DNA of 56,221 nucleotides from Bacillus sp. AFS037270 (lineage in GTDB: Bacteria; Bacillota; Bacilli; Bacillales_B; DSM-18226): NCBI RefSeq assembly GCF_002585305.1, contig NZ_NUNF01000062.1, positions 8,978 through 65,198 of the forward strand, written 5' to 3'. The first letter of the stretch is position 1, and each line of letters opens with the position of its first letter. Of the stretch, positions 35,310-52,078 are shown piece by piece. The position numbers and the translations under genes were made by a program. The notes under the pieces were generated by a model that saw only the letters and a list, made by a program, of their open reading frames with translations, was not told the origin of the DNA and searched no databases.

Positions 35310-35740
35310 TTGCGAAGCGAGTGAGTTCCCCAAAGGGGGATGATTTTTCCCCTTTTGCAAGTAGAACGAAAAACACGCATAGGCAATGGGTCAAGGGTGC
35401 TCTTCGCACAAAAAGTTTTTTGCTGTTGCGAAAGCGTCCTTAAGCAAAAGACTTTTTTGCCCCTTGACCGATTGACTATCCTTTTTAGCTTCTAGCCGGT
35501 AAGGTTCGGGTGTCCTGCCGGCTGGAAGGTTAGAAGGCTTGCGCTGTTTTACGATTCGGAAGGCAAAAGGGAAAAATAAATAACAAAAGCAGCCGTTTCG
35601 GCTGCTCTCCTTTTGTTTTTTATTCTCTTGATCTTTCAATTTTTTGATCTTCCGGTTTTCGGCTCGTTCGGTATGGCGGCGTAAGCCGTAAAGGGAACAG
35701 AAACCTACAGAGTGTAGGCATGAGCCGTACAGACCGTGGT
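35310..35740 (-). repeat. large structured repeat element, copy 1 (upstream of ardC-like gene)
   Basis: One of three copies of a long non-coding element, all in the same orientation. In minus-strand sense it starts near 35740, lacks the 5' module of the other copies, and has the shared core (35740 to about 35463) and the 3' module (to 35310), ending about 60 nt before the ardC-like ATG. Visible stems: CCTACA/TGTAGG, AGCAGCCG/CGGCTGCT (35588-35606, followed by a U-rich run), AGCCGG/CCGGCT, and a long closing stem GGTCAAGGG/CCCTTGACC. The core is richer in GC than its surroundings. Short frames inside it look spurious. Confidence 0.75.
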
Positions 35741-35929
35741 TTTTTATTAAAAGTCAATATATTTTATTAATGAGTTGATAAAAGGGAAGAATTATATAAT
35801 GTTGCACATTATATAAGGCAAAAAGGAAGGATAGATAAAATTTGCTTTATCTATCCTTCTTTGTACTACATTTAACCTCATTTACTACAACAACATTAAG
35901 ATTTACTAAGATAAAATAAGAAATAGTTG

Positions 35930-36022
35930 TTCCATTAAAGCGCCCGTTTGCTGAAGATCAGGATAATTGTTATGATAGCTGCCTTTAGCTTGTTTAACGG
36001 TACAGTTAGTTCAACAAGCACT
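35930..36022. repeat. short dispersed repeat, copy 4
   Basis: Starts ATTAAAGCGCCCGTTTGCTG and ends with ACAGTTAGTTCAACAAG. It lies just past the stop of the RraB-like gene, as copies commonly do at gene ends. Confidence 0.5.
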
Positions 36023-36024
36023 AA

Positions 36025-36360
36025 TTAATCAACCATTACTCCCCATCCATCCGAGTATACATTATAAGGTTTACTTAATTCATTTAGTCGTTTTTGAATA
36101 TCAACAATATCTTCGTGAATTAAAAGCATTTTTACAAAACAATAACAGGTCCAGTCCTCGGTCTCTTCATCTTGTTCTAATTCGTAATTAAACCCATCAT
36201 CGCTTAATAATTTTAATACAGCTTCGCCACTCTTTTTATCTGGAACTGCAACAAAGAAATCAACATTTTGTGGCTTTTTAAAATCAACACCATCTTTATA
36301 AAGCATTTTTAACACTTGTCCATCTTCATCATTAGGGAATTTTTTAGGGAATAAAATCAA
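36025..36360 (-). CDS. RraB-family (ribonuclease E inhibitor B-like) protein
   Basis: A 111-residue protein with the RraB-family pattern: FPNDEDGQVLKMLYKDGVD at the start, then VDFFVAVPDKKSGEAVLKLL and C-terminal YSDGWGVMVD. In E. coli RraB inhibits RNase E; bacilli lack a true RNase E, so the name describes the fold only and the role here is unknown. It is a single gene flanked by dispersed repeats. The usual family length is about 110-140. Confidence 0.8.
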   Translation of the reverse strand: MILFPKKFPNDEDGQVLKMLYKDGVDFKKPQNVDFFVAVPDKKSGEAVLKLLSDDGFNYELEQDEETEDWTCYCFVKMLLIHEDIVDIQKRLNELSKPYNVYSDGWGVMVD

Positions 36361-36504
36361 TTTTATCGTCTACTAGTTTAGTCAGCTAAATTATCTAATA
36401 CTTTGATTTTATCAAATACTATCGTCTATTAATATAGTTATTCTTTAACTAACTTTATTACTTCAATAAGAAAAGGCGATTACATTTGTTAAGCGCTAAA
36501 CATA

Positions 36505-36555
36505 AAGAAAAAGCACAATTCTTGCTGCAGAATTGCGCCCGATAGTTGAATAACT
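36505..36555. repeat. short dispersed repeat, copy 5
   Basis: Hairpin GCACAATTCT/AGAATTGCGC with a 6-nt loop, followed by CCGATAGTTGAATAAC. This copy shows the hairpin-plus-core layout of the family most clearly. Confidence 0.55.
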
Positions 36556-36567
36556 TTCATATTTCAA

Positions 36568-36775
36568 TTAACCCATATCCCCAACATATGCTTGAGCCAT
36601 TTCGTTACGAATACCGTAATTTATTAAATGAGGTATCATAGCTTTTCGATAAAAATCATATTTAATAATTCTTCTAATGGTATCCATCCAAGTGCCACTT
36701 GTTCAGAATCAGTTTCAATTCCTTTACCAAAACCACTTTCATCTATTATGGTATAGGCGAAAAGATGAACAACAA
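36568..36775 (-). pseudogene. C-terminal remnant of a NUDIX-like hydrolase
   Basis: The minus strand reads VVHLFAYTIIDESGFG, then EQVALGWIPLEELLN, which fits the end of a NUDIX hydrolase. After a frameshift it continues as YDFYRKAMIPHLINYGIRNE to a stop at 36568. The NUDIX box itself is absent. Between it and the TetR gene (36776-36901) is GC-rich DNA that I cannot assign. Confidence 0.45.
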
Positions 36776-36901
36776 CATGAACATGAGTATCCCAGCATCT
36801 CGGGCGGCGGGAGCACGGCATCGAAATCTACCTCAGCGATCTCTTGAATTCGCCTCATCAGTAAAGCAAAGGGACACTCCTCGTAAGATTTGGGTATCTA
36901 T

Positions 36902-37480
36902 TCAATCCGAATTAATTCCTGTAAATGAATATTTCACTAAATTTTCAACATAAACATCATCCAAATTTTCACCTATCACAAGCAATCTATAGAAAATTGG
37001 CCCATAAATGAGGTCAATGCTTAAATCGAGATCGAGATTTCCCCTCAATTCCCCGCGCTGAACCCCCCGTTCCATAAGATGCCTAGCCTCAAGCCGGCGA
37101 GGATGGAAGTATCTGGTCCGGTATGCCTTCGCCAGCCCTGAATCAAATTGCCCTTCACCAATCAGCTCCTTAATGATTTTACCCTCCCGACTGGTCAAAA
37201 ACCGAGCTAAACTAGTGGCATGGATGAGTATGTCATTAAATACTGAACCCGTGTCGGGCACCGGCAGTCTTGCCGCAGCAGCAGATAGAAAGCCGTCCAT
37301 AACAACGGCTGCTTTGTTGGGCCACCATTTATAAATTGTGGCTTTACTAACCCTGGCACGCTCAGCAATTTTCTCTACAGTGACCGTTCCAAAGCCATTT
37401 TCCAACAACAAATCATATGAAGCAGAAAGGATAGACTTTTGCGTTTCAACATTACGTGGACGTCCTCTTTTGGCATTCAC
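36902..37480 (-). CDS. TetR/AcrR-family regulator of the divergent MFS pump
   Basis: A 192-residue TetR protein. The HTH is clear (TVEKIAERARVSKATIYKWW, residues about 34-53) after an RGRPR N-terminal arm. The ligand domain follows. Its base composition is richer in GC than most of the window, as is the divergent transporter, which suggests the pair moved together. Three copies of a 17-bp operator-like motif lie in the gap between the two genes, so it probably represses itself and the pump. Confidence 0.88.
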   Translation of the reverse strand: MNAKRGRPRNVETQKSILSASYDLLLENGFGTVTVEKIAERARVSKATIYKWWPNKAAVVMDGFLSAAAARLPVPDTGSVFNDILIHATSLARFLTSREGKIIKELIGEGQFDSGLAKAYRTRYFHPRRLEARHLMERGVQRGELRGNLDLDLSIDLIYGPIFYRLLVIGENLDDVYVENLVKYSFTGINSD

Positions 37481-37505
37481 ACGAATCCTCCCCTTTACAA
37501 TAAAA

Positions 37506-37617
37506 ACTATACGTTCATTATACTAAATATTCAACAAAAAGAAAAAATAGCTATTTACAAAACCGAACGTTCAGTATATTATTTAAATATCAATTACTAA
37601 ACTATACGTACATTATT
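37506..37617. promoter_or_regulatory. three TetR-type operator motifs
   Basis: ACTATACGTTCATTATA (37506-37522), ACCGAACGTTCAGTATA (37562-37578) and ACTATACGTACATTATT (37601-37617) share the pattern ACYRWACGTWCAKTATW. They cover the divergent TetR/MFS promoter gap; a TTTACA and TATATT pair overlaps the middle copy. Confidence 0.7.
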
Positions 37618-37690
37618 TAATTTGTCATGGCAGTACTGAATATTGTTAGCACTGCCGCACACACAATTAATGAAAATTGGGAGGATTACA

Positions 37691-38896
37691 ATGCAAACGA
37701 ATCAAGTTATCGAGGGTAAACGCATTTCAAGCTGGATTATGTTTCTGTTAGCGTCCGCATGTGGTCTTATTGTCGCCAATCTTTATTATGCGCAAACCCT
37801 GGTAGGACCTATCAGTGTCTCTACGGGTCTTTCTTCCGCAGCAGCAGGATTAATTGTCACCTTAACACAAATCGGTTATGTTGCAGGGCTGCTGTTTATC
37901 GTACCGCTTAGTGACATTATTGAAAATCGGCGCCTCGTGGCAGTATCACTAATTGTTGTGGTATGTGCATTGCTTGCGGCAACATTCGCCTCCAATGCGC
38001 TATTTTTCCTGACTGCGTCCCTGTTTATTGGACTGGGATCTGTGGTAGCCCAAATACTGGTTCCCTATGCCGCCCATTTAGCGTCTGAAGAGCAGCGCGG
38101 CCGCGTGGTCGGAAACGTGATGAGTGGACTCTTACTCGGAATTATGTTTGCCAGGCCGGTGGCAAGCTTTATAACCAGCATTTGGGGATGGCAAACAGTA
38201 TTTGCTTTATCGGCGATTGTTATCGCTCTATTGACGGTTCTGTTGTCACGTATTCTCCCTGAGCGTAGACCTTCACCTACGCTAAACTACGGTAAATTAA
38301 TTGTCTCTTTAGGCACCCTCTTAAAACAAACGCCTATATTGCGCCGCCGCGGCATTTATCAAGCTTGTTTATTTGGCGCCTTTAGCCTGTTTTGGACTGT
38401 GGTTCCTTTGCGATTGGTGGATGATTTCGGAATGTCCCAGCAAGGCATCGCATTGTTTGCATTGGCAGGTGTGGGAGGCGCGATAGCAGCGCCGATAGCT
38501 GGAAGACTGGCGGATAAAGGCTGGACCGAATTTTTGACCGGACTCGCAATGATTATTGCTTCCTTGTCTTTTTTGCTGGCATTTCTTTTTCAAGGTAATT
38601 CAGCAACGGCTCTCACATTGCTCATTCTTACTGCTATTATGCTGGATGCGGCCGTATCGGGAAATCTTGTGCTTGGACAGCGAGCGATTTATTCATTGGG
38701 GAGTGAAGCAAGAGGACGACTGAACGGACTTTTCATGTCTATATTCTTTATTGGCGGAGCAATTGGCTCTTCTTTGGGTGGTTGGTCTTATGCTCATGGC
38801 GGCTGGAGTTTCACATCTCTAATTGGAGTTGTTATGCCGCTTTTAGCCTTACTTTACTTTCTTACTGAAAAAAGAACCATCCGTAAAGGACGTTGA
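37691..38896 (+). CDS. MFS transporter, TetR-controlled
   Basis: A 401-residue major facilitator with about 12 helices. Blocks include ACGLIVANLYYAQTLVGPIS, the motif-A-like loop PLSDIIENRRLV, and EQRGRVVGNVMSGLLLGIMF with a second-half motif RLADKG. It resembles YnfM/YdhP-like drug or metabolite exporters; the substrate is not known. The start chosen is ATG at 37691, 6 bp after GGGAGGA; a longer frame upstream has no site. Moderately GC-rich, like its regulator. Confidence 0.85.
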   Translation: MQTNQVIEGKRISSWIMFLLASACGLIVANLYYAQTLVGPISVSTGLSSAAAGLIVTLTQIGYVAGLLFIVPLSDIIENRRLVAVSLIVVVCALLAATFASNALFFLTASLFIGLGSVVAQILVPYAAHLASEEQRGRVVGNVMSGLLLGIMFARPVASFITSIWGWQTVFALSAIVIALLTVLLSRILPERRPSPTLNYGKLIVSLGTLLKQTPILRRRGIYQACLFGAFSLFWTVVPLRLVDDFGMSQQGIALFALAGVGGAIAAPIAGRLADKGWTEFLTGLAMIIASLSFLLAFLFQGNSATALTLLILTAIMLDAAVSGNLVLGQRAIYSLGSEARGRLNGLFMSIFFIGGAIGSSLGGWSYAHGGWSFTSLIGVVMPLLALLYFLTEKRTIRKGR

Positions 38897-38940
38897 AACC
38901 CTTGCAGATGGTTCAGGGCAGTGAAACTCCCCCAAAAGCG

Positions 38941-38996
38941 GGAGAGCACATTGCAGGCAGCGATGAGGTTAGGGGGTTCGATTCCCCTTGACGCTA
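38941..38996 (+). other. tRNA-like 3' half, probably a tRNA remnant
   Basis: CATTG/CGATG can form a 5-bp anticodon-type stem with a 7-nt loop CAGGCAG (GGC in the anticodon place). It is followed by a 6-nt variable region and a T-arm GGGGG-TTCGATT-CCCCT. Position 33 is A, not U, and no matching 5' acceptor strand or D-arm is found. It lies between the MFS stop and a strong terminator. Confidence 0.35.
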
Positions 38997-39003
38997 TAAA
39001 CAA

Positions 39004-39032
39004 AACACCGACTATAGCAGGTCGGTGTTTTT
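39004..39032 (+). terminator. terminator after the MFS gene
   Basis: AACACCGAC and GTCGGTGTT form perfect arms around an 8-nt loop and are followed by a T-run. Confidence 0.85.
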
Positions 39033-39172
39033 CGTTTTCTTAAATACACTTTTGTTAAATACAGTAAATATTAAGTCGTATTTCTTGTTCATCTAAACTC
39101 CCTTTAGTTTCAGTACATTTCTTCACAACCTCACCTCAATTCTAACATAAATATCCAGTTTTGTTTGAGAGC

Positions 39173-39212
39173 CTTACTCCATTAAATGGCCCGTTTGTTG
39201 AATAAGAGTGAT
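39173..39212. repeat. short dispersed repeat, copy 6
   Basis: ATTAAATGGCCCGTTTGTTG followed by AATAAG, close to copy 4. It lies next to a decayed gene. Confidence 0.45.
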
Positions 39213-39229
39213 CTAGAATATATATCTAT

Positions 39230-39575
39230 TTAAACACATTCAAAATGATTCGCCACCCACTTTGAATTATTATCTGCAACGTATTGTTCCGCAAGGATCA
39301 GGCGTTGTACAAGTTCTTTTTTTGATAATTTCATATATTTTCTTTGTATATTATCAAGATTTCGGTTTGGTTTTATTTTATGAAGTTCAATATTCTCGAT
39401 AGTTACAGAACTCTTGGATGGATTCTTGTCGTGCTTCCTTCCGAAAAGTGCGTGCTCTTCACCTCTACGTCTTTCCCCAGACGGCTAAAACGTTTCTCTG
39501 TATCTTTTGTCCATTCAATCAACTCGTATAATTCATGCCTCTGTTCAGGCTGCGGGATCTTCGCTTTAGTTCAAA
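39230..39575 (-). pseudogene. unrecognised frameshifted gene
   Basis: The minus strand reads PEQRHELYELIEWTKDTEKR and then GKDVEVKSTHFSEGSTTR. After a frameshift near 39410 it continues as IENIELHKIKPNRNLDNI and KKELVQRLILAEQYVADN to a stop at 39230. The composition is protein-like (charged helices) but I cannot name the family. The 5' end is not clear. The rest of 38897-39832 has only the tRNA-like piece, a terminator and repeat 6. Confidence 0.4.
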
Positions 39576-39832
39576 TAAATGCATCAAGCAAATTTGACCT
39601 CTCGTTTAATATTATAAACGAGTGTTTCTACACCTTCACTAAGCAAGGTACCGAATGAATATCAATTGTATTGTGAATTTTTTTGTATTTACTCATGGAT
39701 TACAAAAAACCTACTTCCAGCATCTAAGAAAACTTAACTTTAGGTTAAAACTTAATCCTTCATTTAGAAAAAAAACCACAGTATCTAGGACTGTGGTAAA
39801 TAAAAATTTTCTTTCTTATCTTTTTAATAGAC

Positions 39833-40771
39833 TTATATAGATCTCTTACTAAATGCAATTCCCATTGGTCTCTTTGCTTTACCATTAGATTCTTTGTAAT
39901 CTCCACCAATAAAAGGATCATTCCAAACTTCATAATTATAGATTTTGTTATATTCTTTAGCATATATACGGTACGTTTTTCCTTTAGGAACTGTAACTGC
40001 ATATTCATCACTTACAGTTTTTGTTTTTTGATACTGAAAACCTAATTCATATGCAATAGTTTTTACATCCATTCCGGCAGTCCCTGAAAAAGTATACGCA
40101 ACAGAGTCACTGACAGCCATTTTTGCTTCCGCTGGTCCTTGGTAACTACTCACACGAATCGTATCGCCAGTATCGTAATAACTAGTCTTTTTCTTTAGAT
40201 ATAACCCTGATCCCCATTGGGCTTCCATTGTTGAAGTTTCTGTACTAGTTGATGTTTCTGAAGCAGTAGTATTGATATCTTCCTCTGCACCAATAAATGC
40301 ATCAATCTGTTCTTCAGGAATAACTAGACTATACTCAAGAAGAGTTCCTTCTTCTGGTTCTGAAGCAACAGGATCAGAAGTTCCTTCCTCTGTAAGAATT
40401 GGTTCCTGTGACTCACTATTTTGTTGTGCATCAATTTCTTGCAATGTTTCAGGATCTGTAATATGTATTTGTAAATCTCCTGTTCTTGTTACCCCTACAG
40501 TTACACCATCTTCATCTTTATTTACATCAATTCCATCTGCAACTTCATATGTTTCCGTCTCTGCAAGCTTATCGTTTACTTCCTCAATAGTTTCCTTATC
40601 AGTGTACAAAGTTGTCCCATCGGTAGCAGTTGCATCTTCCGTTGTTTGAACAGTAGACGTTACTTCAGGATTTTGGGTAGATTCACCACTTTCTTCAGCC
40701 CTAACATTCATAAACAATAATGAACTCACAGCTAAAAATGTAGAAAGAAAAGTAAACACAATTTTCTTCAT
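39833..40771 (-). CDS. secreted acidic protein of unknown function
   Basis: A 312-residue protein with a Sec signal peptide (cleavage likely after VRA, residue 25). Residues 27-185 are a low-complexity, acidic, Glu/Thr/Ser-rich stretch. Residues about 186-312 look folded and beta-rich, with SGLYLKKKTSYYDTGDTIRV, VAYTFSGTAGMDVKTIAYEL and a basic end KAKRPMGIAFSKRSI. I recognise no catalytic motif. It is divergent from a subtilase gene with a 167-bp shared promoter gap, so the two may be expressed together. Confidence 0.7.
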   Translation of the reverse strand: MKKIVFTFLSTFLAVSSLLFMNVRAEESGESTQNPEVTSTVQTTEDATATDGTTLYTDKETIEEVNDKLAETETYEVADGIDVNKDEDGVTVGVTRTGDLQIHITDPETLQEIDAQQNSESQEPILTEEGTSDPVASEPEEGTLLEYSLVIPEEQIDAFIGAEEDINTTASETSTSTETSTMEAQWGSGLYLKKKTSYYDTGDTIRVSSYQGPAEAKMAVSDSVAYTFSGTAGMDVKTIAYELGFQYQKTKTVSDEYAVTVPKGKTYRIYAKEYNKIYNYEVWNDPFIGGDYKESNGKAKRPMGIAFSKRSI

Positions 40772-40938
40772 AGTTCCTTAGTCCCTTTTTCTATTTATTT
40801 CTAGTAAAATATATATTATTAATTGGAAATTGTATAGTGTTTTTTTTAAAATATGGAAAATGTTTTATTATTCTATTAAATTTTTAAAGATTTTTTTATA
40901 TAATAAATGTAATTATTTATCATGTTGAAGGAGATATT

Positions 40939-42015
40939 TTGAAAATAAATACTAAATTTCTATTAATTACTTTATGTTCCTTAATTATTATTTCAACCTT
41001 AGGCTTTATTAATAATTTTGAAACTCAAAAACGTGAAAATTACAAGAACAGTCCCTTTTTTTTAGTACAAAACATTAATAACAATAAAATGATATTGGAT
41101 TTAACTAGTCAAATATATCCTTCGGGAATTCCATTAGTTAAAAGTTCCTTTATTAGGAAAAAATACGGGGGATCAGGGATCAAAGTTGGAATTTTAGATA
41201 CGGGGGTAGACTACAATCATAAAGATTTAAATATTAAGGGCGGTATATCACTGATAGATAAATCTAATAATTATATGGATTATAGCGGACATGGAACTCA
41301 TGTAGCAGGAATTGTTGGATCATTGGATAATGGTATCGGTACTATTGGAATTGCTCCAAATGTTCAATTATTTGCTATAAAAGCTTTAGACTACAATGAA
41401 AAAGGGAAAATATCTAATATTATTGCAGGAGTACAATGGGCAATTGATAATGAAATAGATATATTAAATATGAGTGTCGGAGCCCCTATTTATTCTAAGG
41501 ACTTGAAGAATGTCTTGGAAAAGGCTTATCTTGCAGGGATGTTTATAGTGGCACCAGTTGGTAATAACGGATTTTCATATCAGTCTAACATACTTTATCC
41601 AGCTAAGTTTCCTACTGTCTTTGCGGTCGGGTCTGTTGATAAAAATTTACAAAGATCTCGTTTTTCTAACGTCGGGAACGAGTTAGATATAATGGCACCG
41701 GGAGAAAAAATAATTAGCACTTTTATTAATAATAAATACGCTTATGGTCAAGGCACCTCAATGGCTTCTCCTCTTGTTGCCGGTGCAGCTGCTGTTTTAC
41801 TAAGTGCAGACCCAACTCTTACTAATATACAAATTTCAGCTATTCTTAAAATATCTGCAAAAAGGAGAGGTGACACTTACGAATATAGTAATGGGGTTTT
41901 AGATGTTTCTAAAGCTTTAGATATAGTCTTGTTAAAGAAGAAGGATACTTTTTTATATAATTTTATTGTGGGTAAATTCACCCAAAATGCAAATCTTACT
42001 GTGGTTAGGTTTTAA
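40939..42015 (+). CDS. S8-family subtilisin-like protease, short form
   Basis: A 358-residue serine protease with an N-terminal signal or anchor helix (residues 6-25). The catalytic triad is Asp87 (GILDTGVD), His118 (GHGTHVAG) and Ser274 (GTSMASP), with the oxyanion Asn209. Only about 45 residues separate the signal and the catalytic domain, too few for the usual I9 propeptide, so it may not need the standard inhibitor-type maturation. It starts with TTG, 6 bp after AAGGAG. Its divergent neighbour is a secreted acidic protein, a possible substrate or partner (inference). Confidence 0.85.
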   Translation: MKINTKFLLITLCSLIIISTLGFINNFETQKRENYKNSPFFLVQNINNNKMILDLTSQIYPSGIPLVKSSFIRKKYGGSGIKVGILDTGVDYNHKDLNIKGGISLIDKSNNYMDYSGHGTHVAGIVGSLDNGIGTIGIAPNVQLFAIKALDYNEKGKISNIIAGVQWAIDNEIDILNMSVGAPIYSKDLKNVLEKAYLAGMFIVAPVGNNGFSYQSNILYPAKFPTVFAVGSVDKNLQRSRFSNVGNELDIMAPGEKIISTFINNKYAYGQGTSMASPLVAGAAAVLLSADPTLTNIQISAILKISAKRRGDTYEYSNGVLDVSKALDIVLLKKKDTFLYNFIVGKFTQNANLTVVRF

Positions 42016-42135
42016 TTATCCTAATAAGTAAATATACAAGGTTTCTCTTTTTAATTGCTTAATTCAAGTATATCATAAATATTATATAAACAGATTAAGT
42101 CGTCTTTGCATGCCCCAGCCTTTATGTCAAGTTTT

Positions 42136-42153
42136 GGCCCCGTAAAAGGGGCC
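42136..42153 (+). terminator. terminator downstream of the subtilase gene
   Basis: GGCCCC and GGGGCC arms around a 6-nt loop with T-rich flanks. It lies 120 bp after the stop, but there is no other gene between. Confidence 0.6.
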
Positions 42154-42904
42154 ATTTACTATTTAAGATAATTGTTTAAACGGATAGCAAAGTAATTCCA
42201 CATAATACTAATTGTCGCACTGCCAATCTTAATTTTTTTTAGACATTTCCATACCCCTTTTATCATCCTTTAAATAGATATTGATTTTTATTTCAGGTTC
42301 AACGTTCACCCCCCCCCCGACACAACATCCATTTATTTACAAATTAAAACCAAAATACAAATGGTAAAAGAACTCAATTATAATTCGTGTAAATTTGAAA
42401 CTACTAATAAAAAAACAGGAGTGCTATTATAGCAACTCCTGTTTTAAATAATAGTGAGGATATTGGCGAAATAGTTATTGAGATAAATGATGGAGTTATT
42501 ACCTATCAAGCACAGACTCTTCCTCAATGAACACTTCCTGTTGCAGAACAATTCAAAGAAGATTAACTAAAAAGAATCTATATCTGTGTTAAACCTTATT
42601 GGTGTAGGCACGTTAAATACTAATCTACAAAAAACAAGCATCTTTACTAAAAAGTGATTTTTTATTTAGATTACTTCAAGTTGGTTCTTCTTCAGACCTT
42701 TCTTATATACTTAATTAATTCAAAAGACCATTTGCCCTGCAAATTGGTTACCTTTCTTCCCCGAATCATCTATCAAAAGGTTGCCCAAGCAACCGTCAAG
42801 CAGGCTCGATGCCTGTGTTATTTAATCAAGAAAAAACGGATGTTTTTTTTCCATTCGTGAATCAACATCGGCGTAGGTCCTGCAGATGTTTTTCGGTTTC
42901 AGTT
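42154..42904. other. intergenic region with a hairpin and a protein-like scrap
   Basis: At 42412-42445 AAAACAGGAGTGC and GCAACTCCTGTTTT form a hairpin with one bulge and T/A-runs, like a terminator. Plus-strand codons at about 42446-42565 read ILAK-like and NSEDIGEIVIEINDGVITYQ in different frames, with an in-frame stop before PVAEQFKED, so a decayed gene is possible. Its family is not clear. Confidence 0.35.
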
Positions 42905-43154: not shown

Positions 43155-43607
43155 TTATAGATAGCCTTTCTCCTTAAGGCTGACATGCTTTCCGGTATGG
43201 GTGACAATCACATGGTCAAGGACTTCAATACCTAAAATTCTCCCTGCCTCTGCGAGTCGCTTGGTAATGTCGATATCCTCCCGGCTCGGTGTAGGGTCTC
43301 CACTAGGATGCTGATGGCTGACAATAATGGAGGCCGCATTATTAATAATAGCGCATTTCATCACCTCCCTTGGATGAACAATACTCGCGTTCAAACTTCC
43401 TACATGAGCTCTATGTAACCCAACTACCTGATTTTTCGTATTGAGCATCATCACAAGAAGCACTTCCCGGTCTTCATCCGCAATGTAAGAGGCGGCTAAT
43501 TTTTGGGCATCTTCTGGTGAACGAACAGCATACTGTGCAAACGGCTCAGCGGATTCCTTAATTTCTTGTTTGATTCTAACGACTTCAAAGATTGACATTA
43601 ATTCCAT
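43155..43607 (-). CDS. radC: RadC-family JAB-domain protein
   Basis: A 150-residue JAB/MPN domain with the JAMM motif intact: His98, His100 and Asp111 in VSHQHPSGDPTPSREDID. It lacks the N-terminal helix-hairpin-helix region of full-length chromosomal RadC (about 225 residues), which is typical of RadC-like proteins carried on mobile elements. The biochemical role is unsettled; a link to DNA repair has been withdrawn for E. coli. A GGGAG site precedes the ATG. Copy 2 of the large repeat element ends about 52 bp upstream. Confidence 0.85.
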   Translation of the reverse strand: MELMSIFEVVRIKQEIKESAEPFAQYAVRSPEDAQKLAASYIADEDREVLLVMMLNTKNQVVGLHRAHVGSLNASIVHPREVMKCAIINNAASIIVSHQHPSGDPTPSREDIDITKRLAEAGRILGIEVLDHVIVTHTGKHVSLKEKGYL

Positions 43608-43659
43608 TTTTCAAAACTCCCTTTCATTATTTGTTTTTTCTTTTCCATTTTTTCTTTTT

Positions 43660-44183
43660 GGATTCCGAAGCGAATCCATTCCCCAAAAGGGGATGATTTT
43701 TCCCCTTTTGCAAGTAGAACGAAAAACACGCATAGGCAATGGGTCAAGGGCGATTTTCGCACAAAAAGTTTTTTGCTGTTGCGAAAGCGTCATTAAGTAA
43801 AAAACTTTTTTGCCCCTTGACCGATTGACTAACTTTCTTAGCTTCTAGTCGGAAAGGTTCGGGTGTCCTACCGGCTGGAAGGTTAGAAAGCTTGCGTTGT
43901 TTTACGATTCGGAAGGCAAAAGGGAAAAATCAACAATAAAAGCAGCCGTTTCGGCTGCTCTCCCTTTGTCTTTTATTCTTTTAGTCTTTCAATCTTTTGA
44001 TTTTCCGGTTTTCGGCTCGTTCGGTATGGCGGCGTTAGCCGTAAATGGAACAGGAACCTACGGAATGTAGGCGTAGGCCGTACAGTCCGTGGGTATCGGT
44101 CCATTTAATGCCGAAGCGACACGTACGGAATGACAGAAAGGGTGCTTTTCCTTTCTGATCAGTCCGTAGTGCTGCCGCCCAAA
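43660..44183 (-). repeat. large structured repeat element, copy 2 (upstream of radC-like gene)
   Basis: The most complete copy. In minus-strand sense: a 5' module (44183 to about 44093) with ACGGA...TCCGT enclosing CAGAAAGG/CCTTTCTG and then GCTTCGGC; the shared core (to about 43815) with CCTAC/GTAGG and AGCAGCCG/CGGCTGCT (43941-43959) followed by U-rich DNA; and the 3' module with GGTCAAGGG/CCCTTGACC enclosing TTTCGCA/TGCGAAA and CAAAAA/TTTTTG, then GGATTC/GAATCC at 43660-43677. It ends about 52 nt before the radC ATG. Open frames inside are not conserved between copies. Confidence 0.75.
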
Positions 44184-44430
44184 ATATGTTCTCATCCTTA
44201 TAACACTCTCTGAACATTGACGTAATCTTCCGAATACCTTTTGAACTTAATAAAAAAGCCCCTCAACTTTTAGTAAGGGGGAAATTAATAAAAATAATAG
44301 ATTTTTCACTTTTCGCTTCCGATTTCTCATTTTTCATATTTTTAAAGATTCACATTATAAGGATATGATGATGAAAAATCAACTTGTATAATGTATATTA
44401 TATGCTAAGTTAAATTCAAGCATCGAGCAT

Positions 44431-44745: not shown

Positions 44746-44817
44746 ATGAAAAAAATAGAAAATATGGGATTAATTTCATTCTTAGTTTTAGTTATTAGAA
44801 CAACATTTACTTATTAA
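44746..44817 (+). CDS. possible 23-residue hydrophobic peptide
   Basis: ATG with GAGAGG 9 bp upstream opens a 23-codon frame with a hydrophobic centre (MGLISFLVLVIRTTF). It could be a membrane peptide, a leader peptide, or the start of a gene that shifts frame into the next entry. Evidence is limited to the start signals. Confidence 0.3.
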   Translation: MKKIENMGLISFLVLVIRTTFTY

Positions 44818-44823
44818 AAGGAG

Positions 44824-44979: not shown

Positions 44980-45560
44980 AGGTGGAAAAATAATAAATGT
45001 TAATTTAATATAGAAGAGAAAAAAGCTTTTTGTATTTTAGTTTTTTTAATGTTTATAAGTGATTTTATTTTCTTTTTTTGATTTATACGAAATTGAAAAC
45101 TCTTCTTTTAATATAGTGTACATCTAAATATTGGTCCGTTACTTTTACAAATATTCATTTTTATTTATGCCTACAAATAACCAAAAAGAACTCGGATAAA
45201 AATCTAAGTATCCTATGTTGGTTATATATTTTTCCGTTTTGTTGTCCAATAAGAAATTAATTTTTTTCCTAGTTATCTCACCCACTTTAGATATTTCCTA
45301 TTTTTAACGAATAAGGAATTTCCTTTTTTAACCTGCTTCGCTTAATAGATTTTAATCAATCTTTTTTATAGACTTTATTACAAATTATCAAACTTTATTC
45401 AGAATCCATACTTTTTACGTATTTCAATGTAACAAAAATGTATTATGTAACATAATACAAGTCACCCTGGGGTGACTTCATGGTTTAGATGCATTTGAAT
45501 AGTACGAGCACGTAACGATCTACCTTGCACTATCATGAATAGCTGATTACCTATTTATGA
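44980..45560. other. AT-rich intergenic DNA
   Basis: Nothing coding seen. A hairpin AAGTCACCC/GGGTGACTT with a short centre lies at about 45461-45480. Confidence 0.35.
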
Positions 45561-45564
45561 TCTT

Positions 45565-45900
45565 TCGACTATAAATAAACAGTTTACCACCCATGATAAT
45601 GGTTCGTTCGACCGTACAAAATACCTGTACACCCATATATAACCTCTCGGCCATATATGAACGTTAACTTCATTGAGTCATGTACTCATCTAATTCTGCG
45701 GCACTCGGCACGATCTTCGCTCGACCCATATGATAAATTGGGACCTTATAGTAATAATACCTTCTAGTGGTACGACTACAATAAAACCTTTCTCTACCAT
45801 ATAGAATCTTCCCTCCGACCATACACAAACCATTATTAGATGATCTGTATACAATCTTTGGCTAACCTATATATACTCCATAAGAGCATATATAAAATCT
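45565..45900. repeat. degenerate tandem repeats, period about 22-24 bp
   Basis: Units approximate CGACCATATATAAACCTT and recur near 45565, 45587, 45608, 45630, 45647, 45721, 45744, 45768, 45792, 45814, 45862 and 45884. Read on the minus strand many units give Tyr-Gly-Arg-like peptides (ILYGRERFY, VIYGCTGILYGR), and a frame ends MGRAKIVPSAAELDEYMTQ, but frames are broken. It may be a decayed repeat-protein gene or a non-coding array. Confidence 0.5.
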
Positions 45901-46352
45901 TGGCTCAACCGTTACGTACTAATATCAAGAGCAAATTCATTCGAACTATACGCAATGAGAATATAACATATTTGGAAAAAGGTCACTCATTACAATCAAC
46001 ATATTATTTTTTCTTCTACACATAATAATTTTTAGGTTTTACCCTAATTTATACTTCCTGAGGAGTGATCACTCAATACACAACCCGTTCCTACTTTCAC
46101 TAGTAAATCCAAAACATCAAATTGCTTTTTTCTTTCTTCCAAGTTGAGCTCCAGTCCCTTCTATGTACCTTTATAACCTTATCCTATTTCTCTAGTTCCT
46201 TTAAATTGTTTCTTTAGTTTTTGAAACTTTATTATATTTCAGGGGTTTTAAAATTTAAATACTATTCCTGTAATCATTTTCAATGATTTCAAATAATTAA
46301 GTCTTGAAATGTATTTCAGCAAGTAAACCATGACATTAAAGGGAGAAAAACC

Positions 46353-46580
46353 ATGAAAGTATTAGGAGTATTTGTATTTATTCTTTTATTAGCCATTTCT
46401 TTAAGTATATTAATGGATATTCTCTTAGGCTTTAAGCTTTCTCACGCATTATTGCATATACTTAACTCATTTTGGGTAATAGAAACTGGAGAATATGTAA
46501 TGATTGCATTTCTTTTATTAATTACAATTGGTCAGCAAATCATGATTATCATAAAAAAGAATAAACAAAATGGTACCTAG
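46353..46580 (+). CDS. small two-helix membrane protein, possible germinant receptor D subunit
   Basis: A 75-residue protein with two membrane helices (VFVFILLLAISLSILMDILL and MIAFLLLITIGQQIMIII). A GGGAGA site precedes the ATG. Its length, topology and position fit the D subunits of GerA-type receptors, small two-helix proteins encoded in or beside ger operons that tune germination. It converges on the B-subunit gene and overlaps its end by 4 bp, rather than being in the operon. The match rests on features, not on alignment. Confidence 0.55.
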   Translation: MKVLGVFVFILLLAISLSILMDILLGFKLSHALLHILNSFWVIETGEYVMIAFLLLITIGQQIMIIIKKNKQNGT

Positions 46581-47680
46581 TTAGCTTTTTTTATGAAACG
46601 ATTACGTATCATAGCAACAACCATCATGCATAACGGAATGATGATATGCAAAGGAATGTGAATATAATATGAAGTAATCGTTTGACCTTCCTCAATATGT
46701 TCAGCAAAATTGGAGGCAATCATCATTGATAAAAATGTGATTATAATCCCAGCTGGGAAAATAATTTGTTGATGATTTTTTAACTTGAACAAATCAACCA
46801 TTCCGATTACCGCGGCATAAAAAAAGATGGCGATTTTAAAAAACATCGTAATTAGAAAGGTAAAAACAACAATAGCATCAAGCCGTTGTAAAAACTCCAT
46901 AAGATTAACTTTTCCGATGGTTGATAGCAAAGGGAAAGTCGATCTTCCCACTTCATCAGCACCAAGAACAGCAACATTTAAAGCAGCTGTATAACTTAAT
47001 ATGAGACCACTTGAAATTAAGGCAGAAAGCCAAGTTTTTTTTGCTAATTCAGGTCGATTTAAATAAGGAAGAATCATAGTAAAGACAAGTATTTCAGCAA
47101 AAGGGAAATAGGTAATCAACGGAAATGCTGTTGTAATGATTGGATTCCATCCATTTTCTAGGAACGGCTCCAAATTATTAAATTCGACATTTCCTGAAAC
47201 ATATACTAACAGGTTGCCTATGAGGCCCAAAAGGATCAGAATGACAATTAATACTTCTGATGTTCTTCCTACTACTTCAATCCCTAGATAAAGTACATAA
47301 CAAATGGCAAGAACCATCAAGATATTGATCGCCAATAACGGTGTCGCTGGCATAGTTGAGGTAAGTAACAAATCACTGAAGTCCCGTAAATTCCGGGAAG
47401 CAGCATACAAAAAGTAAACCGTGTATACTAAGCCGATGATCCACCCAATGTACTTGCCAAATATTTTCCGGGCATATCCGGTTAACGGCAGGTTGGGATA
47501 TAGACGAAATAAAAAGTAGTACATGAAAAATAAAACAATTCCCCCGAATAGCCCTAACAGAATAGCAAGCCAGGCATCTTTTCCCGCACTACTGCCTAGG
47601 CTTACTACAAGCGCGCTTCCAAGTTCAAACAAGAACATCATGGCAAATAGTTGGACGACACTAACTTTGGCTTTCTCCAT
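46577..47680 (-). CDS. GerAB-family germinant receptor B subunit
   Basis: A 367-residue integral membrane protein of the spore germination permease group (amino acid-polyamine transporter fold), with about 10 helices. It begins VQLFAMMFLFELGSALVVSL; other blocks are GWIIGLVYTVYFLYAASRNL and FADISLT-like YFPFAEILVFTMILPYL. B subunits bind the germinant in the inner spore membrane. It is the last gene of the A-C-B operon, 47 bp after the C-subunit gene. Confidence 0.88.
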   Translation of the reverse strand: MEKAKVSVVQLFAMMFLFELGSALVVSLGSSAGKDAWLAILLGLFGGIVLFFMYYFLFRLYPNLPLTGYARKIFGKYIGWIIGLVYTVYFLYAASRNLRDFSDLLLTSTMPATPLLAINILMVLAICYVLYLGIEVVGRTSEVLIVILILLGLIGNLLVYVSGNVEFNNLEPFLENGWNPIITTAFPLITYFPFAEILVFTMILPYLNRPELAKKTWLSALISSGLILSYTAALNVAVLGADEVGRSTFPLLSTIGKVNLMEFLQRLDAIVVFTFLITMFFKIAIFFYAAVIGMVDLFKLKNHQQIIFPAGIIITFLSMMIASNFAEHIEEGQTITSYYIHIPLHIIIPLCMMVVAMIRNRFIKKAN

Positions 47681-47727
47681 TGTTTTAGAAGACCTTCCTT
47701 CGTTACTTGTTATGCTCGACTTTTCAT

Positions 47728-48939
47728 TTATTTTATATATGATTTTGTCCTCAATCCAGACCGTCGAATAAACGAGTGTACCTTTACCTTGATTTCTGTC
47801 TCGGGAAAGATTTCATCATTCCATCTGTTCTTAATCTTCTTCCACAATTTTGAATTTTCACGGTTAATATTTTCACCAAAACGAAATATATCGGTTTTTT
47901 GTTTTTTCGCCTCTTTTACAGCCTTTATCACTTCTGCTTTTATTTCGTTCTCCATCTGGTTTTCAAGTTTTTCAATAGTTGTATGTTTACTGAGATCAAT
48001 GGGACAATGGACCTCTGAGATGTGGCCTTCTGATCGGACGGTAATCTGAATAACGGGTTTTTTGTTTTTTATTTCCACTTTAATTTTTGTTTTGGCGCGC
48101 ATAACGTCCACCGCAATCCCCTTTTTTATCTCCCCACAATTAAGGTCTACAACGGTTTTTTTTAACTCATTATTAATCCATATTGAACCACGGGCTGTAT
48201 CTTCATCCAACCATTTAATGAGTTTCCCTTTTTTAAAAATAGCAAGTCCTTTGATTTCGATCGCTGTATTTGGAGATATTTGTTGAATATTTGTGAACTT
48301 GTTCCCTTTTTTCGGGTCTCCGATAATCTGAACCCCCGTTAAATTTGCCCCTTCTCCTCCCCCTAATTGTTGAATAACTTGGTCAGCACGGGTACTTGAA
48401 TACTCTCCCCAGATTTTTGTGGTGGATTCCAACCCACCAACAATTTTTGCAGAAGGAACGTCCTCTAAAGGTGTGGTGATTTGGAGAAGAGTCTTTGCTG
48501 TATTGTTTCTGACGACTAGAATAGGAAACAGTGTACGAAATTGGGAATCTCGTTCAATCAAATCAAACAAATCTTGAATCCCCTTTTTCCGAGCGAGCTC
48601 CTCCCCAATCAACATTAGTTGGACATGAGGAAAAAAAAGCTCATTGGGTGACATTGGATTAATTTTTCGGAGTGCCTCTGCAACGGTGCTGCCTTTAGCC
48701 GAATAAGTCGTAACAGGCGCCACTATTGATTTCCCTCCTTGTGTTCCCGCACTAGCTATTTGTCCTTCATTAACAACTTGTACTGTAACGAGATATCTGT
48801 TTTCCGAATTATTGCCACCTTTATCAATGCCAATAGCGCTTACTATATCAAGATCTTGTAATTCTTCACGATCCCAACATCCTGATAGTAATACGGCAGA
48901 TATTATCATAAAGAGAGTGATGAATAATTTATGTCTCAT
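47728..48939 (-). CDS. GerAC-family germinant receptor lipoprotein (C subunit)
   Basis: A 403-residue lipoprotein with lipobox LLSGC and acylated Cys21, followed by the family start CWDREELQDLDIVSAIGIDK. Later blocks (KGLAIFKKGKLIKWLDEDTA, and GRIKSEG-like VRSEGHISEVHCPIDL) fit the three-domain Ger(x)C fold. It is anchored to the spore inner membrane beside the A and B subunits. Its start overlaps the A-subunit gene by 11 bp, with AGAGG in front. Confidence 0.9.
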   Translation of the reverse strand: MRHKLFITLFMIISAVLLSGCWDREELQDLDIVSAIGIDKGGNNSENRYLVTVQVVNEGQIASAGTQGGKSIVAPVTTYSAKGSTVAEALRKINPMSPNELFFPHVQLMLIGEELARKKGIQDLFDLIERDSQFRTLFPILVVRNNTAKTLLQITTPLEDVPSAKIVGGLESTTKIWGEYSSTRADQVIQQLGGGEGANLTGVQIIGDPKKGNKFTNIQQISPNTAIEIKGLAIFKKGKLIKWLDEDTARGSIWINNELKKTVVDLNCGEIKKGIAVDVMRAKTKIKVEIKNKKPVIQITVRSEGHISEVHCPIDLSKHTTIEKLENQMENEIKAEVIKAVKEAKKQKTDIFRFGENINRENSKLWKKIKNRWNDEIFPETEIKVKVHSFIRRSGLRTKSYIK

Positions 48940-50572
48940 TAGAATTCCTCTTCGACTCGTGATCCTTTATTTGTCCTTCTCTCGGTGACGGGCCCAGATC
49001 CTTAGTAGCACCTGTTCGCTTTATATTCGTTTGGTTCAACAATCGAGGACGGTTTGACCTAAACTGGCTCGGGAAACGAATGATGGTATCTTTCCAATCA
49101 GCGAGTATGAGTGGTGCATAAGGAGTTAAATACGGAATACCAAAAGAGCGAACGCTGCAAGTGTGTGCGACTAAAACAATGACTCCGAGTCCAATCCCGT
49201 ATAACCCAAAAGAAGCTGCCAATAACATTATGATAAATCGGAGTAAACGTGTTGCATCCGTCATCGAAGCATGAGGCATCGTAAAACTGGCGATTGCTGT
49301 CCCTGCCACGACAATTACCATTGCACTTGAAACAATTCCTGCTGCAACAGCTGCTTGTCCCAATACAAGTGCACCAACGATTGAAACAGCCTGTCCAATA
49401 GGACGAGGCATCCTAACCCCTGCTTCCCGCAACACTTCAAATGTAAATTCCATTAACAAAGCCTCTATGAATACCGGAAAAGGAATTCCATGTCGCTGTG
49501 CTGACAGACTAACTAATAAGGGAGTTGGAATCAATTCCGGATGAAACGAAATAAACGCAATAAATAAGGACGGTCCCAAAAGAGTGGTTAAAAATGCACT
49601 TAATCTTAGAAGTCTCAAAAAACTGGCAATATACCAATTCATATAATAATCTTCAGCCGTTTGAAAAAATTGAATCCAAGTCGCTGGTAAAATTAAAGGA
49701 AATGGTGACCCATCAACAAAAATAGCGACACGTCCTTCTAGTAAATTTCCGACCACTACATCCGGGCGCTCTGTTGTAAATATGGTCGGCCAAGGTGTCC
49801 AAATGTTATCGTTAATCCATTCTTCAATAGTATTGGAACCAGCAATTTCATCTACTTCTATTTTACCTAATCGTTCTTTTACCTCAGTAAGAAGTTTTTC
49901 ATTGACAATCCCCTTTAAGAACATAATAGAAACATCCGTTTGTGCAACTTTCCCTAGTTTTATGGTTTCAACCCATAGATTAGGGCTTTTTATCCGGTGG
50001 CGAACCATTGCTGTATTGGTAACTAGCGACTCAACAAAGCTCTCTTTAGGTCCTCGGACAGCCGGTTCTGTCGTAGGTTCTGAAATGGCCCTTAACTCCC
50101 CGCCTTGTGCACTACAGGCAATGGATCTATCCCAACCATCAATCAGAAGAATGGTTCTCCCGGATAAAAGGGAACTCAATATCTTGTTCCAATCCGTAAC
50201 GTCCTCAACTCCAGCAATTGTCAATATATTTTCCTTAATATAGGTAAATAATTGACCTGGTTGCTGAGAATCTCCGCTTTCCATATGGTTTCCGTCACCC
50301 ATCAGTCTTTCTATAATAAAATTTCCTAGTATCTCCTTATCTGTTAAGCCATTTATATAAAGTAAGGCAACTTTATTCATAGAAAGTTTTCCCATATTAA
50401 ATTCACGAATAATTAAGTCACTGCTGTTACCCAAAACTTTCTTAATATTTTTGAGGTTATCGTCTAAATCTTGACTGATTATTTGGTTGTTTAATGCCAA
50501 TTCAGTTTCTTCATAATACAGTTTTTGCTCTCTTTTTTTCCTTTTTATCAGTCGGCTCCATGCACTGTTCAT
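48929..50572 (-). CDS. GerAA-family germinant receptor A subunit
   Basis: A 547-residue protein with a cytoplasmic N-terminal domain (about 1-250, containing TILLIDGWDRSIACSAQGGE and RAISEPTTEPAVRGPKESFV), five or six membrane helices and a basic tail. It oligomerises as the channel part of GerA-type receptors. The start chosen is ATG at 50572, 10 bp after GGAGTG; the frame opens six codons earlier at a TTG overlapping that site. First gene of the A-C-B operon. The germinant cannot be told from sequence. Confidence 0.9.
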   Translation of the reverse strand: MNSAWSRLIKRKKREQKLYYEETELALNNQIISQDLDDNLKNIKKVLGNSSDLIIREFNMGKLSMNKVALLYINGLTDKEILGNFIIERLMGDGNHMESGDSQQPGQLFTYIKENILTIAGVEDVTDWNKILSSLLSGRTILLIDGWDRSIACSAQGGELRAISEPTTEPAVRGPKESFVESLVTNTAMVRHRIKSPNLWVETIKLGKVAQTDVSIMFLKGIVNEKLLTEVKERLGKIEVDEIAGSNTIEEWINDNIWTPWPTIFTTERPDVVVGNLLEGRVAIFVDGSPFPLILPATWIQFFQTAEDYYMNWYIASFLRLLRLSAFLTTLLGPSLFIAFISFHPELIPTPLLVSLSAQRHGIPFPVFIEALLMEFTFEVLREAGVRMPRPIGQAVSIVGALVLGQAAVAAGIVSSAMVIVVAGTAIASFTMPHASMTDATRLLRFIIMLLAASFGLYGIGLGVIVLVAHTCSVRSFGIPYLTPYAPLILADWKDTIIRFPSQFRSNRPRLLNQTNIKRTGATKDLGPSPREGQIKDHESKRNSNET

Positions 50573-50728
50573 TTTGTTATAACACTCCAAAGTTTATAGT
50601 GTCACCAAAGGAATGGTCCTATGTTCCTAATATATAGGTTATTTATTTCCCAATTTTTGATACATTTAGTGTAATAATAAATAATGTAAAATGTGTTCAC
50701 TATATACCCTAGTTTCCGTATTAATTAT

Positions 50729-51498
50729 TCAGTTATTTATTGATTTTTGCTCATAAATGTTTTGTTCACTTATCCATTGTTGTACCTTAAACAATCGAAG
50801 GTCAAAAGCCATTTGAAATAATCCTGTCAGTCGATATTGGAAGAAGTCATTTTTCTTAAGCTTAATAAGAGCTTCGTCATATGAAAAAAAGCCAAGCTTT
50901 TGAAAAAGTAACCAATCTAATGTCTGTTTAACGTTCTCAGGATTCTTCCAATAATTGATCTGAACGTTAGTAAATTCCTAAGGTTGAAAATGACCGGGAT
51001 ATACAGCATAAATAACTTGATAAGGCGAATTACCAAAAGATTTAAAAATGCCAAGAAGTCTATAGTCTTTAAAAAAATGATAGTTGATTCGCAAAGGGAT
51101 TTCATGATGGGTCATCTTACATTTTTCTTAGATCCATATCGCACGGCTTCAATCGCCCTTTTTCTTTCGTTTTCTCCTTGCCAATAATTGTTGGAAACTT
51201 GATTGAATTCCCAAGGTCTAAACTTTCCAGGATAAGCATTTTCAATTATCCACATAAAATCCTTCCATCCTTGAACATAAGCCGCAGGTCGTAACCGGTG
51301 ATTCCAAAGTGTTGCCGCTTTCACTTTTCGAGGAATTTCCTTTACGGAAATTCCTAGGTAATCTTCAATTAGATACCTTGTTAGGAAGGCTAAGTATTTT
51401 TTTCCCTGCTCTCCTACAAAGAAGTGATCAGGAAATTTACCTCTTTTTCCATCTAACACATCCCGATAAATTTGGAGCACTTTTTCTCTCTCTACCAT
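50729..51498 (-). pseudogene. DUF4046-type gene broken by a frameshift and a stop
   Basis: From the ATG at 51498 (AAGGAGG 7 bp upstream) the frame reads EKVLQIYRDVLDGKRGKF, then AYPGKFRPWEFNQVSNNYWQ, and stops at 51112. The next frame continues with a second, similar repeat: INYHFFKDYRLLGIFKSFGN, then VYPGHFQP, a TAG where Trp is expected, then EFTNVQINYWKNPENVKQTL, ending at 50729. The twice-repeated YPG-F-PWEF-YW motif fits DUF4046, a Bacillus family of unknown function often on mobile DNA. Copy 3 of the large repeat element lies about 200 bp upstream. Confidence 0.65.
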
Positions 51499-51701
51499 AA
51501 GCATTCCTCCTTTTGCACTTCTGTTTTTTACTAGAGATTTTTGCCCTCAAAACTCAGAAAAATACGCTAAAACAGTAATTAAACAAGACCTAAACGGACG
51601 GTGTTAAATTTCGGTTTGGCTTTTGAAAACGAAAAATCTTCCTAAGTGACCAACGATAAAATCATTGCTAAAATTACTGACTTAGTTTTGAATAAGTTAC
51701 T

Positions 51702-52078
51702 CTTGACCGATTGACTAGCCTTCTTAGCTTCTAGCCGGAAAGGTTCGGGTATCCTACCGGCTGGAAGGTTAGAAGGCTTGCGCTGTTTTACGATTCGGAA
51801 GGCAAAAGAGAAAAACCAACAACAAAAGCAGCCGTTTCGGCTGCTCTCCTTATGTCTTTTATTCTTTTGTTCTTTTGATCTTTCCATTTTTTGATCCTCC
51901 GGTTTTCGGCTCGTTCGGTATGGCGGCGTATGCCGTAAAGGGAACAGGAACCTACGGAGTGTAGGCATGAGCCGTACAGACCGTGGTTATCGGTTCATTT
52001 AATGCCGAAGCGACACGTACAGAATGACAGAAAGGGTGCTTTTCCCTTTCTGATCAGTCCGTAGTGCCGCCGCCCAAA
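51702..52078 (-). repeat. large structured repeat element, copy 3 (upstream of DUF4046 gene)
   Basis: In minus-strand sense it has the 5' module (52078 to about 51987; CAGAAAGGG/CCCTTTCTG within ACGGA/TCTGT) and the core (to about 51702) with CCTAC/GTAGG, AGCAGCCG/CGGCTGCT (51827-51845) and AGCCGG/CCGGCT. It stops just inside the first strand of the 3' closing stem; the 3' module is absent and about 200 bp of unrelated DNA leads to the DUF4046 start. Confidence 0.75.

Follow-up and report, generated by a model that had tools for sequence, protein, structure and literature searches.

The closest described relatives of the element examined here are the EGeRS1 leaders of the pLS20 family of conjugative plasmids, which Val-Calvo et al. 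(2021; PMC8708921) describe as GC-rich sequences of 400-750 bp with many inverted repeats and a 3' branch of about 300 nt. They directly precede the ribosome-binding site (RBS) of five pLS20 operons, that of ardC included, and are also found on pBS72 and other plasmids outside the pLS20 family, at least ten in all. A chromosomal fusion of EGeRS1-B in B. subtilis showed no constitutive promoter, and blocked read-through in the native orientation only; they were described there without a mechanism (PMC8708921). The stretch analysed in the present work, called the window, comprises 56,221 nucleotides from Bacillus sp. AFS037270 (contig NZ_NUNF01000062.1, positions 8,978 to 65,198) and contains three copies of an element which, on the homology set out below, is a divergent branch of EGeRS1. 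The result is a known family with new members in a new setting, together with a proposal for its mechanism: the best explanation of the element, given about an even chance, is a single-strand promoter like the Frpo of the F plasmid.

The mechanism by which Gram-positive conjugative plasmids briefly switch on establishment genes in the recipient is an open question. In the case of Frpo, the signal ends once the second strand has been made (PMC9849209); for a Streptococcus example, no sequence significantly similar to Frpo is reported. The idea of a single-strand promoter was considered and set aside for EGeRS1 in 2021, and is revived here for the branch of the family found on MOBQ replicons.

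Alignment and profile search confirm that the three window copies share one orientation, as a sequence-only reading of the stretch had claimed. The copies, their internal features and the genes downstream are as follows, with R1 denoting the covariance model described below.

43647-44186, minus strand: copy 2 of the EGeRS1-type element, full length (about 540 bp), upstream of intact radC (nhmmer 549 bits, model positions 5-548)
35293-35743, minus strand: copy 1, upstream of a broken ardC (nhmmer 470 bits, model positions 98-549)
51700-52080, minus strand: copy 3, degenerate and without its 3' end, matching the model only to position 386 of 552
43691-43928, minus strand: 3' branch of copy 2, with stem 1, stem 2, a side hairpin and stem 5 (R1 260 bits; among the 23 sequences of R1)
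35338-35575, minus strand: 3' branch of copy 1 (R1 251.5 bits)
43742-43747, minus strand: proposed -35 TTGACC of copy 2, in the 3' arm of stem 5 (in copy 1 at 35389-35394)
43903-43908, minus strand: letters of the 5' arm of copy 2 (sense ATCGTA), whose complement in the folded template would be the proposed -10 TACGAT (in copy 1 at 35550-35555)
43938-43962, minus strand: terminator-like hairpin GAGAGCAGCCGAAACGGCTGCTTTT of copy 2, in the sense direction (pattern match only)
35585-35609 and 51824-51848, minus strand: the same terminator-like hairpin in copies 1 and 3 (pattern match only)
43155-43607, minus strand: intact radC with JAB domain, 150 amino acids (Pfam RadC PF04002, E 2.7e-42)
34860-35249, minus strand: ardC remnant, frame broken (ArdcN match)
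51112-51504, minus strand: DUF4046 open reading frame (ORF), 130 amino acids (PF13255, E 3.8e-6), 195 bp after copy 3

Copy 2 measures 540 bp and the other two are incomplete, copy 1 (451 bp) lacking the first 97 or so model positions and copy 3 (381 bp) lacking the 3' part and hence the GGTCAAGGG/CCCTTGACC hairpin; the other stems that had been listed as common to all copies were found in the sequence. Identity is 90.5% over 440 bp between copies 1 and 2, 89.9% over 377 bp between copies 2 and 3, and 91.3% over 287 bp between copies 1 and 3, and the GC content of the copies is 45-49%, compared to 36.8% across the window. A run of T follows the terminator-like hairpin in all three copies (pattern scan). 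The leader is the conserved part and stands before genes unrelated to one another, as had been read from the sequence. The intact radC begins 39 bp past copy 2 with an RBS between, and the ardC start, also with an RBS, lies 43 bp past copy 1, the ardC pieces being split over two frames. The claim that the element is directly upstream of ardC, radC and DUF4046 is therefore sound for copies 1 and 2, each of which has an RBS-bearing start within 45 bp, and fails for copy 3, which has none. As to a coding function, the check covered an ORF of 108 amino acids inside copy 3, which had no Pfam match. The supposition that such genes act when foreign DNA enters is borne out for some of them: ArdC is an anti-restriction protein (PMC7213743), and a DNA cytosine methyltransferase comes after one of the copies on the plasmid NZ_CP035233.

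The assignment to EGeRS1 depends on that plasmid (B. glycinifermentans SRCM103574), the clade III reference plasmid, which is equated by strain name with pBglSRCM103574 and to which the legend of Figure 4 of PMC8708921 gives EGeRS1 A to E. R1 finds five copies there, all on the plus strand (E 8e-23 to 1e-19), and a sixth, weak match on the opposite strand (E 0.009); this homology places the element in EGeRS1, the five copies equalling the published number. Window-type and pLS20-type sequences are joined by blastn through NZ_CP035233, on which (locus L052) a pLS20-like stretch at 6566-6804 is followed at once by a window-like stretch at 6839-7169, in tandem before one operon, so that EGeRS1 seems to be modular in build. 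Since an nhmmer search of pLS20 with the window-type profile gave nothing at E<=10, the link to pLS20 goes through other plasmids. Nothing was found by R1 on the whole pLS20 record at E<=0.01; on 50 kb of that record its two best matches are weak (E 0.05 and 0.08), lie on the correct strand within two of the three long repeats there, and are taken to be EGeRS1-C and -B. The EGeRS1 traits present in the window are a length of 400-750 bp (copy 2), a GC content above that of the replicon, inverted repeats, several copies, ardC among the genes, and an RBS after copies 1 and 2. The earlier reading, which knew of no named RNA class with this sequence, is not supported on this point, the published name being EGeRS1 (PMC8708921). 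A known RNA family was ruled out, with no Rfam match in the window at the gathering score. No insertion-element ends in common were seen by eye in the 60-bp flanks, no formal search, target duplications included, having been made.

The covariance model R1 comprises 23 sequences, 236 positions and 54 pairs, its members having been picked with a 93% filter from the 35 copies with a complete 3' branch among the 42 non-redundant of 53 copies. In the alignment of these 23 sequences 94.0% of the cells pair and two-sided changes occur in 31 of the 54 pairs; none of 500 shuffles reaches the covariation of R1, and sliding the partner by one column lowers its score from 0.238 to at most 0.070. The covariation check proposed in the sequence-only reading has thus been passed. 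The DNA folding energy of each copy and strand is far below that of 60 shuffles (z -6.7 to -14.4), and the template strand folds with lower energy than the sense strand in copy 2 (-137.2 and -118.4), copy 1 (-103.7 and -91.4) and copy 3 (-77.5 and -75.2). By z, only copy 2 favours the template (-14.4, compared to -9.4 for the sense strand).

In order to distinguish a fold kept in DNA from one kept in RNA, one script was applied to four sets, the pairs being found by folding each strand and the G-T and A-C cells then counted. For pairs found on both strands the ratio of G-T to A-C cells is 37:56 in the core set (23 copies) and 87:141 in the full set (42 copies), while in RNA controls drawn from the same genomes it is 46:4 for RNase P (from 20 of the 24 loci, which the redundancy filter reduced to 13) and 28:2 for the T-box (from all 30 loci, reduced to 24). 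Counted by pairs, the ratios are 27:32 (core), 58:61 (full), 27:1 (RNase P) and 13:2 (T-box), and Fisher tests of element versus controls on these numbers of pairs give p values from 9e-7 to 0.008, uncorrected for relatedness. Pairs of the sense fold alone give 49:60, 236:175, 122:4 and 135:21 in the same order. In 18 copies standing before near-full-length genes, chosen by hand from about 22 (two copies of L049 and one each of L005 and L050 were left out), the ratio is 17:33. Since the stems covary strongly without the G-U excess of the RNA controls, the fold seems to be kept in DNA, with little sign of RNA selection. The leader RNA or trans-acting RNA suggested earlier finds no backing here, G-U being no commoner than A-C in the both-strand pairs, unlike in RNase P and the T-box.

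When the template strand of copy 2 is folded, TTGACC stands on both arms of stem 5, and in stem 2, 18 positions further along the template arm, the non-template arm reads TACGAT. The -11 A of this folded -10 stems from sense T25 (alignment A1), which faces a T, so that the A is unpaired in the minimum-free-energy structure of the template strand, in which the -8 A is also unpaired, being bulged; the corresponding site of the duplex reads TTTCGTT. Of the 104 loci, 57 were given to a covariance search, pLS20 and most genome stretches being left out, and they yielded 68 matches representing 64 distinct copies. In these, the alignment being unsure for the strongly decayed ones, the -35 is TTGACC in 41, the spacer is 18 in 52 and the folded -10 is TACGAT in 51; the partner of T25, in the 62 copies with letters there, is T in 51, C in 7, G in 4 and never A. 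The commonest form, TTGACC-18-TACGAT, is predicted to fit the consensus at five of six positions in the -35 and four of six in the -10, and among the clade III copies the best-aligned ones have TTGTCA-18-TACGAT, the T being opposite a C in all five. In 11 rows found without the search pattern (10 plasmid loci and the window), conservation is 0.89-0.96 in the -35 core and 0.95 in the -10 arm, the spacer columns showing 0.61 (208-213), 0.93 (214-217) and 0.80 (218-222) and the whole 0.78.

In a pattern scan of the duplex under the same limits as for the fold (9 or more of 12, with A at 2 and T at 6), copies 1 and 2 showed nothing of sigma-70 type on either strand, and a plain duplex promoter was rejected for them on that scan; the single promoter match lies on the strand opposite to copy 3. 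The proposed -35 is absent from copy 3 at a working spacing. A promoter-like arrangement of this kind occurs in 0.19% of shuffled arms, a figure calculated post hoc, and the open-access literature listings searched assign no promoter to EGeRS1. The guess of a mobile promoter cassette comes closest among the earlier readings.

The most far-reaching reading of these features is held tentatively, with a confidence slightly short of even: EGeRS1-type leaders would be a family of Gram-positive promoters confined to single-stranded DNA, their -10 put together from two arms that lie far apart and their constantly preserved -11 mismatch ensuring that second-strand synthesis erases the promoter, so that anti-defence genes are expressed in a pulse on entry. 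In the mechanism proposed for the element, the 3' branch of the template strand, which is the transferred strand in MOBQ relatives, would fold into a long imperfect helix whose stacked stems 5 and 2 set the -35 TTGACC 18 bp before the -10 TACGAT. Because the -11 A and the -8 A, supplied by the opposite arm, would be unpaired, RNA polymerase could start on the incoming single strand and make the mRNAs of radC, ardC and similar genes at once. Second-strand synthesis would convert the site to TTTCGTT and remove the promoter, and the terminator-like hairpin upstream would stop read-through. In the window, copy 2 seems intact, copy 1 would drive a dead ardC, and copy 3 would have no promoter helix.

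A promoter of this kind requires the template to be the strand that enters. The MOBQ oriT consensus is given as NWACCNNTAAGTGCGCCCTYNN (PMC3832669). Seven replicons have this motif, with an inverted repeat preceding it, a short way upstream of a MOBQ relaxase and on the strand opposite to it: W06 (with one mismatch), W08, W11, G001:C2, G002:C1, G005:C10 and G016:C132. The strand reading NWACCNNTAAGTGCGCCCTYNN is assumed to be the nicked one, with cleavage behind GTGCG and the 5' end leading in transfer. On that basis the template is the transferred strand for 22 of 23 copies across the seven replicons, namely 1 of 1 in W06, 2 of 2 in W08, 1 of 1 in W11, 7 of 8 in G001:C2, 8 of 8 in G002:C1, 2 of 2 in G005:C10 and 1 of 1 in G016:C132, where copies were counted at E<=0.01 in the W records and at E<=0.001 in the G records and weak mirror matches at the same places were not counted. 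W08, W11, G005 and G016 each have a copy on the leading side at a distance of 3.9-6.2 kb from nic, and many other copies are far from nic. Judged by relaxase orientation alone, W12 also agrees with the template rule.

Several observations weigh against the single-strand promoter. By relaxase orientation, W05, with full matches, runs 4:1 the other way and W09 is divided 1:1, the oriT being unlocated in both. In a gene-strand control, for which 20 stretches were profiled on each of G002:C1 and G001:C2, 8 of 10 copies in the profiled 20-kb stretches follow the majority gene strand; gene-strand bias may therefore explain the distant co-oriented copies, the one exception included, and replicon-wide co-orientation was dropped as proof of a strand-of-transfer rule. 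For the establishment genes of pLS20 it is the sense strand that is transferred (PMC5313138, PMC8708921), the published nick being placed at 27781-27794 on the plus strand, and NZ_CP035233, arranged like pLS20, would by analogy have the same polarity though its copies keep TTGTCA-18-TACGAT. The authors of EGeRS1 rejected a single-strand promoter on polarity and saw no promoter in the pLS20 fold (PMC8708921). No MOBQ oriT was found in the window. The folded -10 fits the consensus at only 4 of 6 positions and the site was found after the fact; the arrangement requires stem 5 to be stacked on stem 2, with the side hairpin leaving the non-template arm within the spacer; and the pattern used to fetch genome loci contains the -10 arm, which inflates the conservation of that arm and not that of its partner. 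By z the template is not favoured in copy 1 (-9.2, sense -10.3) or copy 3 (-6.7, sense -6.9), and with pairs from the sense fold alone the full set has more G-T than A-C cells, by a surplus far below that of the controls. The polarity rule applies to those MOBQ replicons whose oriT was located and does not extend to the whole family. The window is tied to that group by sequence, its positions 51702-53758 being 88.5% identical to G002:C1.

Three further exact matches to the nic motif, L097, L098 and L099, were not used, there being no relaxase in the stretch examined. That of L098 reads by eye like a tRNA gene. L097 (G019:C100) has a MOBQ-type oriT with inverted repeat (nic 6963-6974) and no relaxase within 13 kb, and is possibly an oriT-only mobilisable replicon; it shares 81.7% over 470 columns with window 45619-46075.

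The conflict over polarity is removed in the main rival explanation, itself unlikely, in which the freshly made, supercoiled plasmid extrudes the palindromes as cruciforms that show the same template-strand hairpin, because the transferred strand then no longer matters. Both the promoter in the folded template arm and the occurrence of both polarities fit such a cruciform, as does the conservation of the DNA stems without significant strand preference (58:61 pairs), but a cause would be required for extrusion at entry alone, and the EGeRS1-B fusion, which was on the chromosome and not on a plasmid, gave no promoter activity (PMC8708921). An RNA leader, whose folded sense transcript would serve as attenuator, antiterminator target or riboregulator, is rather less probable. 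It would account for the position of copies 1 and 2 upstream in the sense direction with an RBS right after, for the terminator-like hairpin and T run in all three copies, and for the covariation of 31 of 54 pairs with 236 G-T versus 175 A-C cells in the sense-only fold of the full set, and the lack of a mechanism in print leaves room for it; it is opposed by the G-T to A-C ratio of 37:56 compared to the controls at 46:4 and 28:2, by the ratio of 17:33 in the 18 copies before near-full-length genes, and by the duplex promoter that such a transcript needs, which is unmatched at copies 1 and 2 and absent in the published fusions.

The two remaining explanations are more doubtful. In the first of them, to which only a small probability is given, the fold acts like an sso and primes the second strand after transfer, gene control being secondary. 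The title of Masai and Arai 1997 reportedly names Frpo for both transcription and priming, which is counted in favour of this explanation. The sso elements are themselves folded single-strand promoters for RNA polymerase (PMC4595007). Priming, however, needs neither the up to eight copies per contig nor the nearness of many of them to gene starts, and the polarity relative to the transferred strand varies among plasmid families. The least probable explanation, which is very improbable, is neutral upkeep of palindromes, whereby template switching between the arms repairs mismatches and so produces covariation without function, and recombination spreads the copies. It too predicts two-sided changes without a G-U excess, and several copies are indeed truncated or stand before broken genes; against it, one position has a complementary partner in 0 of 62 copies and the spacer holds its length while its sequence varies, both unlike the outcome of homogenisation, and within 1.6 kb of about 22 of the 64 copies there is still a near-full-length radC or ardC.

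With copy 2 as query, blastn found 44 places spread over 24 of the 72,556 plasmid records searched; of these 24, 22 bear genus names of Bacillus relatives and the other two are labelled Arthrobacter and Aeromonas. The oddly labelled records with the element are CP053689.1 (Arthrobacter), NZ_KP738729.1 (Aeromonas) and NZ_LMVB01000001 (Paenibacillus); the other-genus labels may be wrong, or transfer may be wide. Phage collections gave no match to copy 2 by blastn, and viral contigs none to a 22-base pattern. Across one genome per species (GTDB) that pattern found 34 stretches, one of which, L027 from a metagenome-assembled genome of Planctomycetota, gave no covariance match at E<=1e-8. The first gene recognised by tblastn (E<=1e-4; queries radC, ardC and DUF4046) within 1.6 kb downstream of the 64 distinct copies is radC in 23, ardC in 12 and DUF4046 in 1, so that radC or ardC comes first in 35 of them, 26 copies having none of the three and 2 too little sequence; among those counted are copies in decay and a few genes at a distance of several hundred bp. 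Eight copies each are carried by G002:C1 (Bacillus sp. OV166, 586 kb) and G001:C2 (Neobacillus pocheonensis, 1.44 Mb), on which some copies precede broken genes.

Elsewhere in the window, positions 137-12831 hold an aromatic-degradation-like block with two XylR_N/V4R/PucR-type regulators, a catechol-dioxygenase-like protein, an alpha/beta hydrolase and a molybdopterin hydroxylase set. Three minus-strand ORFs of 367, 403 and 553 amino acids lie at 46577-50590; from their first residues they presumably resemble a GerA-type spore germination receptor operon.

The single-strand promoter proposed here makes a base-level prediction, the kept -11 mismatch, together with a polarity rule, and R1 flags candidate establishment genes in Bacillus relatives. 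If the proposal is true, single-strand promoters serve plasmid entry in a second bacterial phylum. A known system that it would resemble in mechanism is Frpo/ssi of F and ColIb-P9, in which a folded single strand rebuilds the -35 and -10, is inactive as duplex and has entry genes downstream (PMC9849209, PMC11541004); there too the transferred strand is the template, which is the case here only in MOBQ replicons. The element differs in the three-way junction within its spacer and in its host phylum, and is likened to Frpo by mechanism, with no claim of sequence kinship. It would share with the sso of rolling-circle plasmids and ICEBs1 a folded single-stranded DNA that host RNA polymerase can read as a promoter (PMC4595007), but the sso serves priming, whereas EGeRS1-type copies precede genes, close to the RBS. 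EGeRS2 of p576, an ordinary strong promoter with Reg operators (PMC8708921), leads the same class of genes; it is a duplex promoter, of which none was matched in window copies 1 and 2. With the EGeRS1 of the pLS20 family and other Bacillus plasmids the element has in common that it is a GC-rich leader full of inverted repeats, precedes the RBS of ardC and further operons for establishment, recurs several times on a plasmid and has a 3' branch of about 300 nt. It differs in that many relatives here are carried by MOBQ replicons from other genera and frequently precede radC or ardC, in that the transferred strand is the sense strand on pLS20 and the template in the seven MOBQ replicons, and in that its similarity to pLS20 is borderline.

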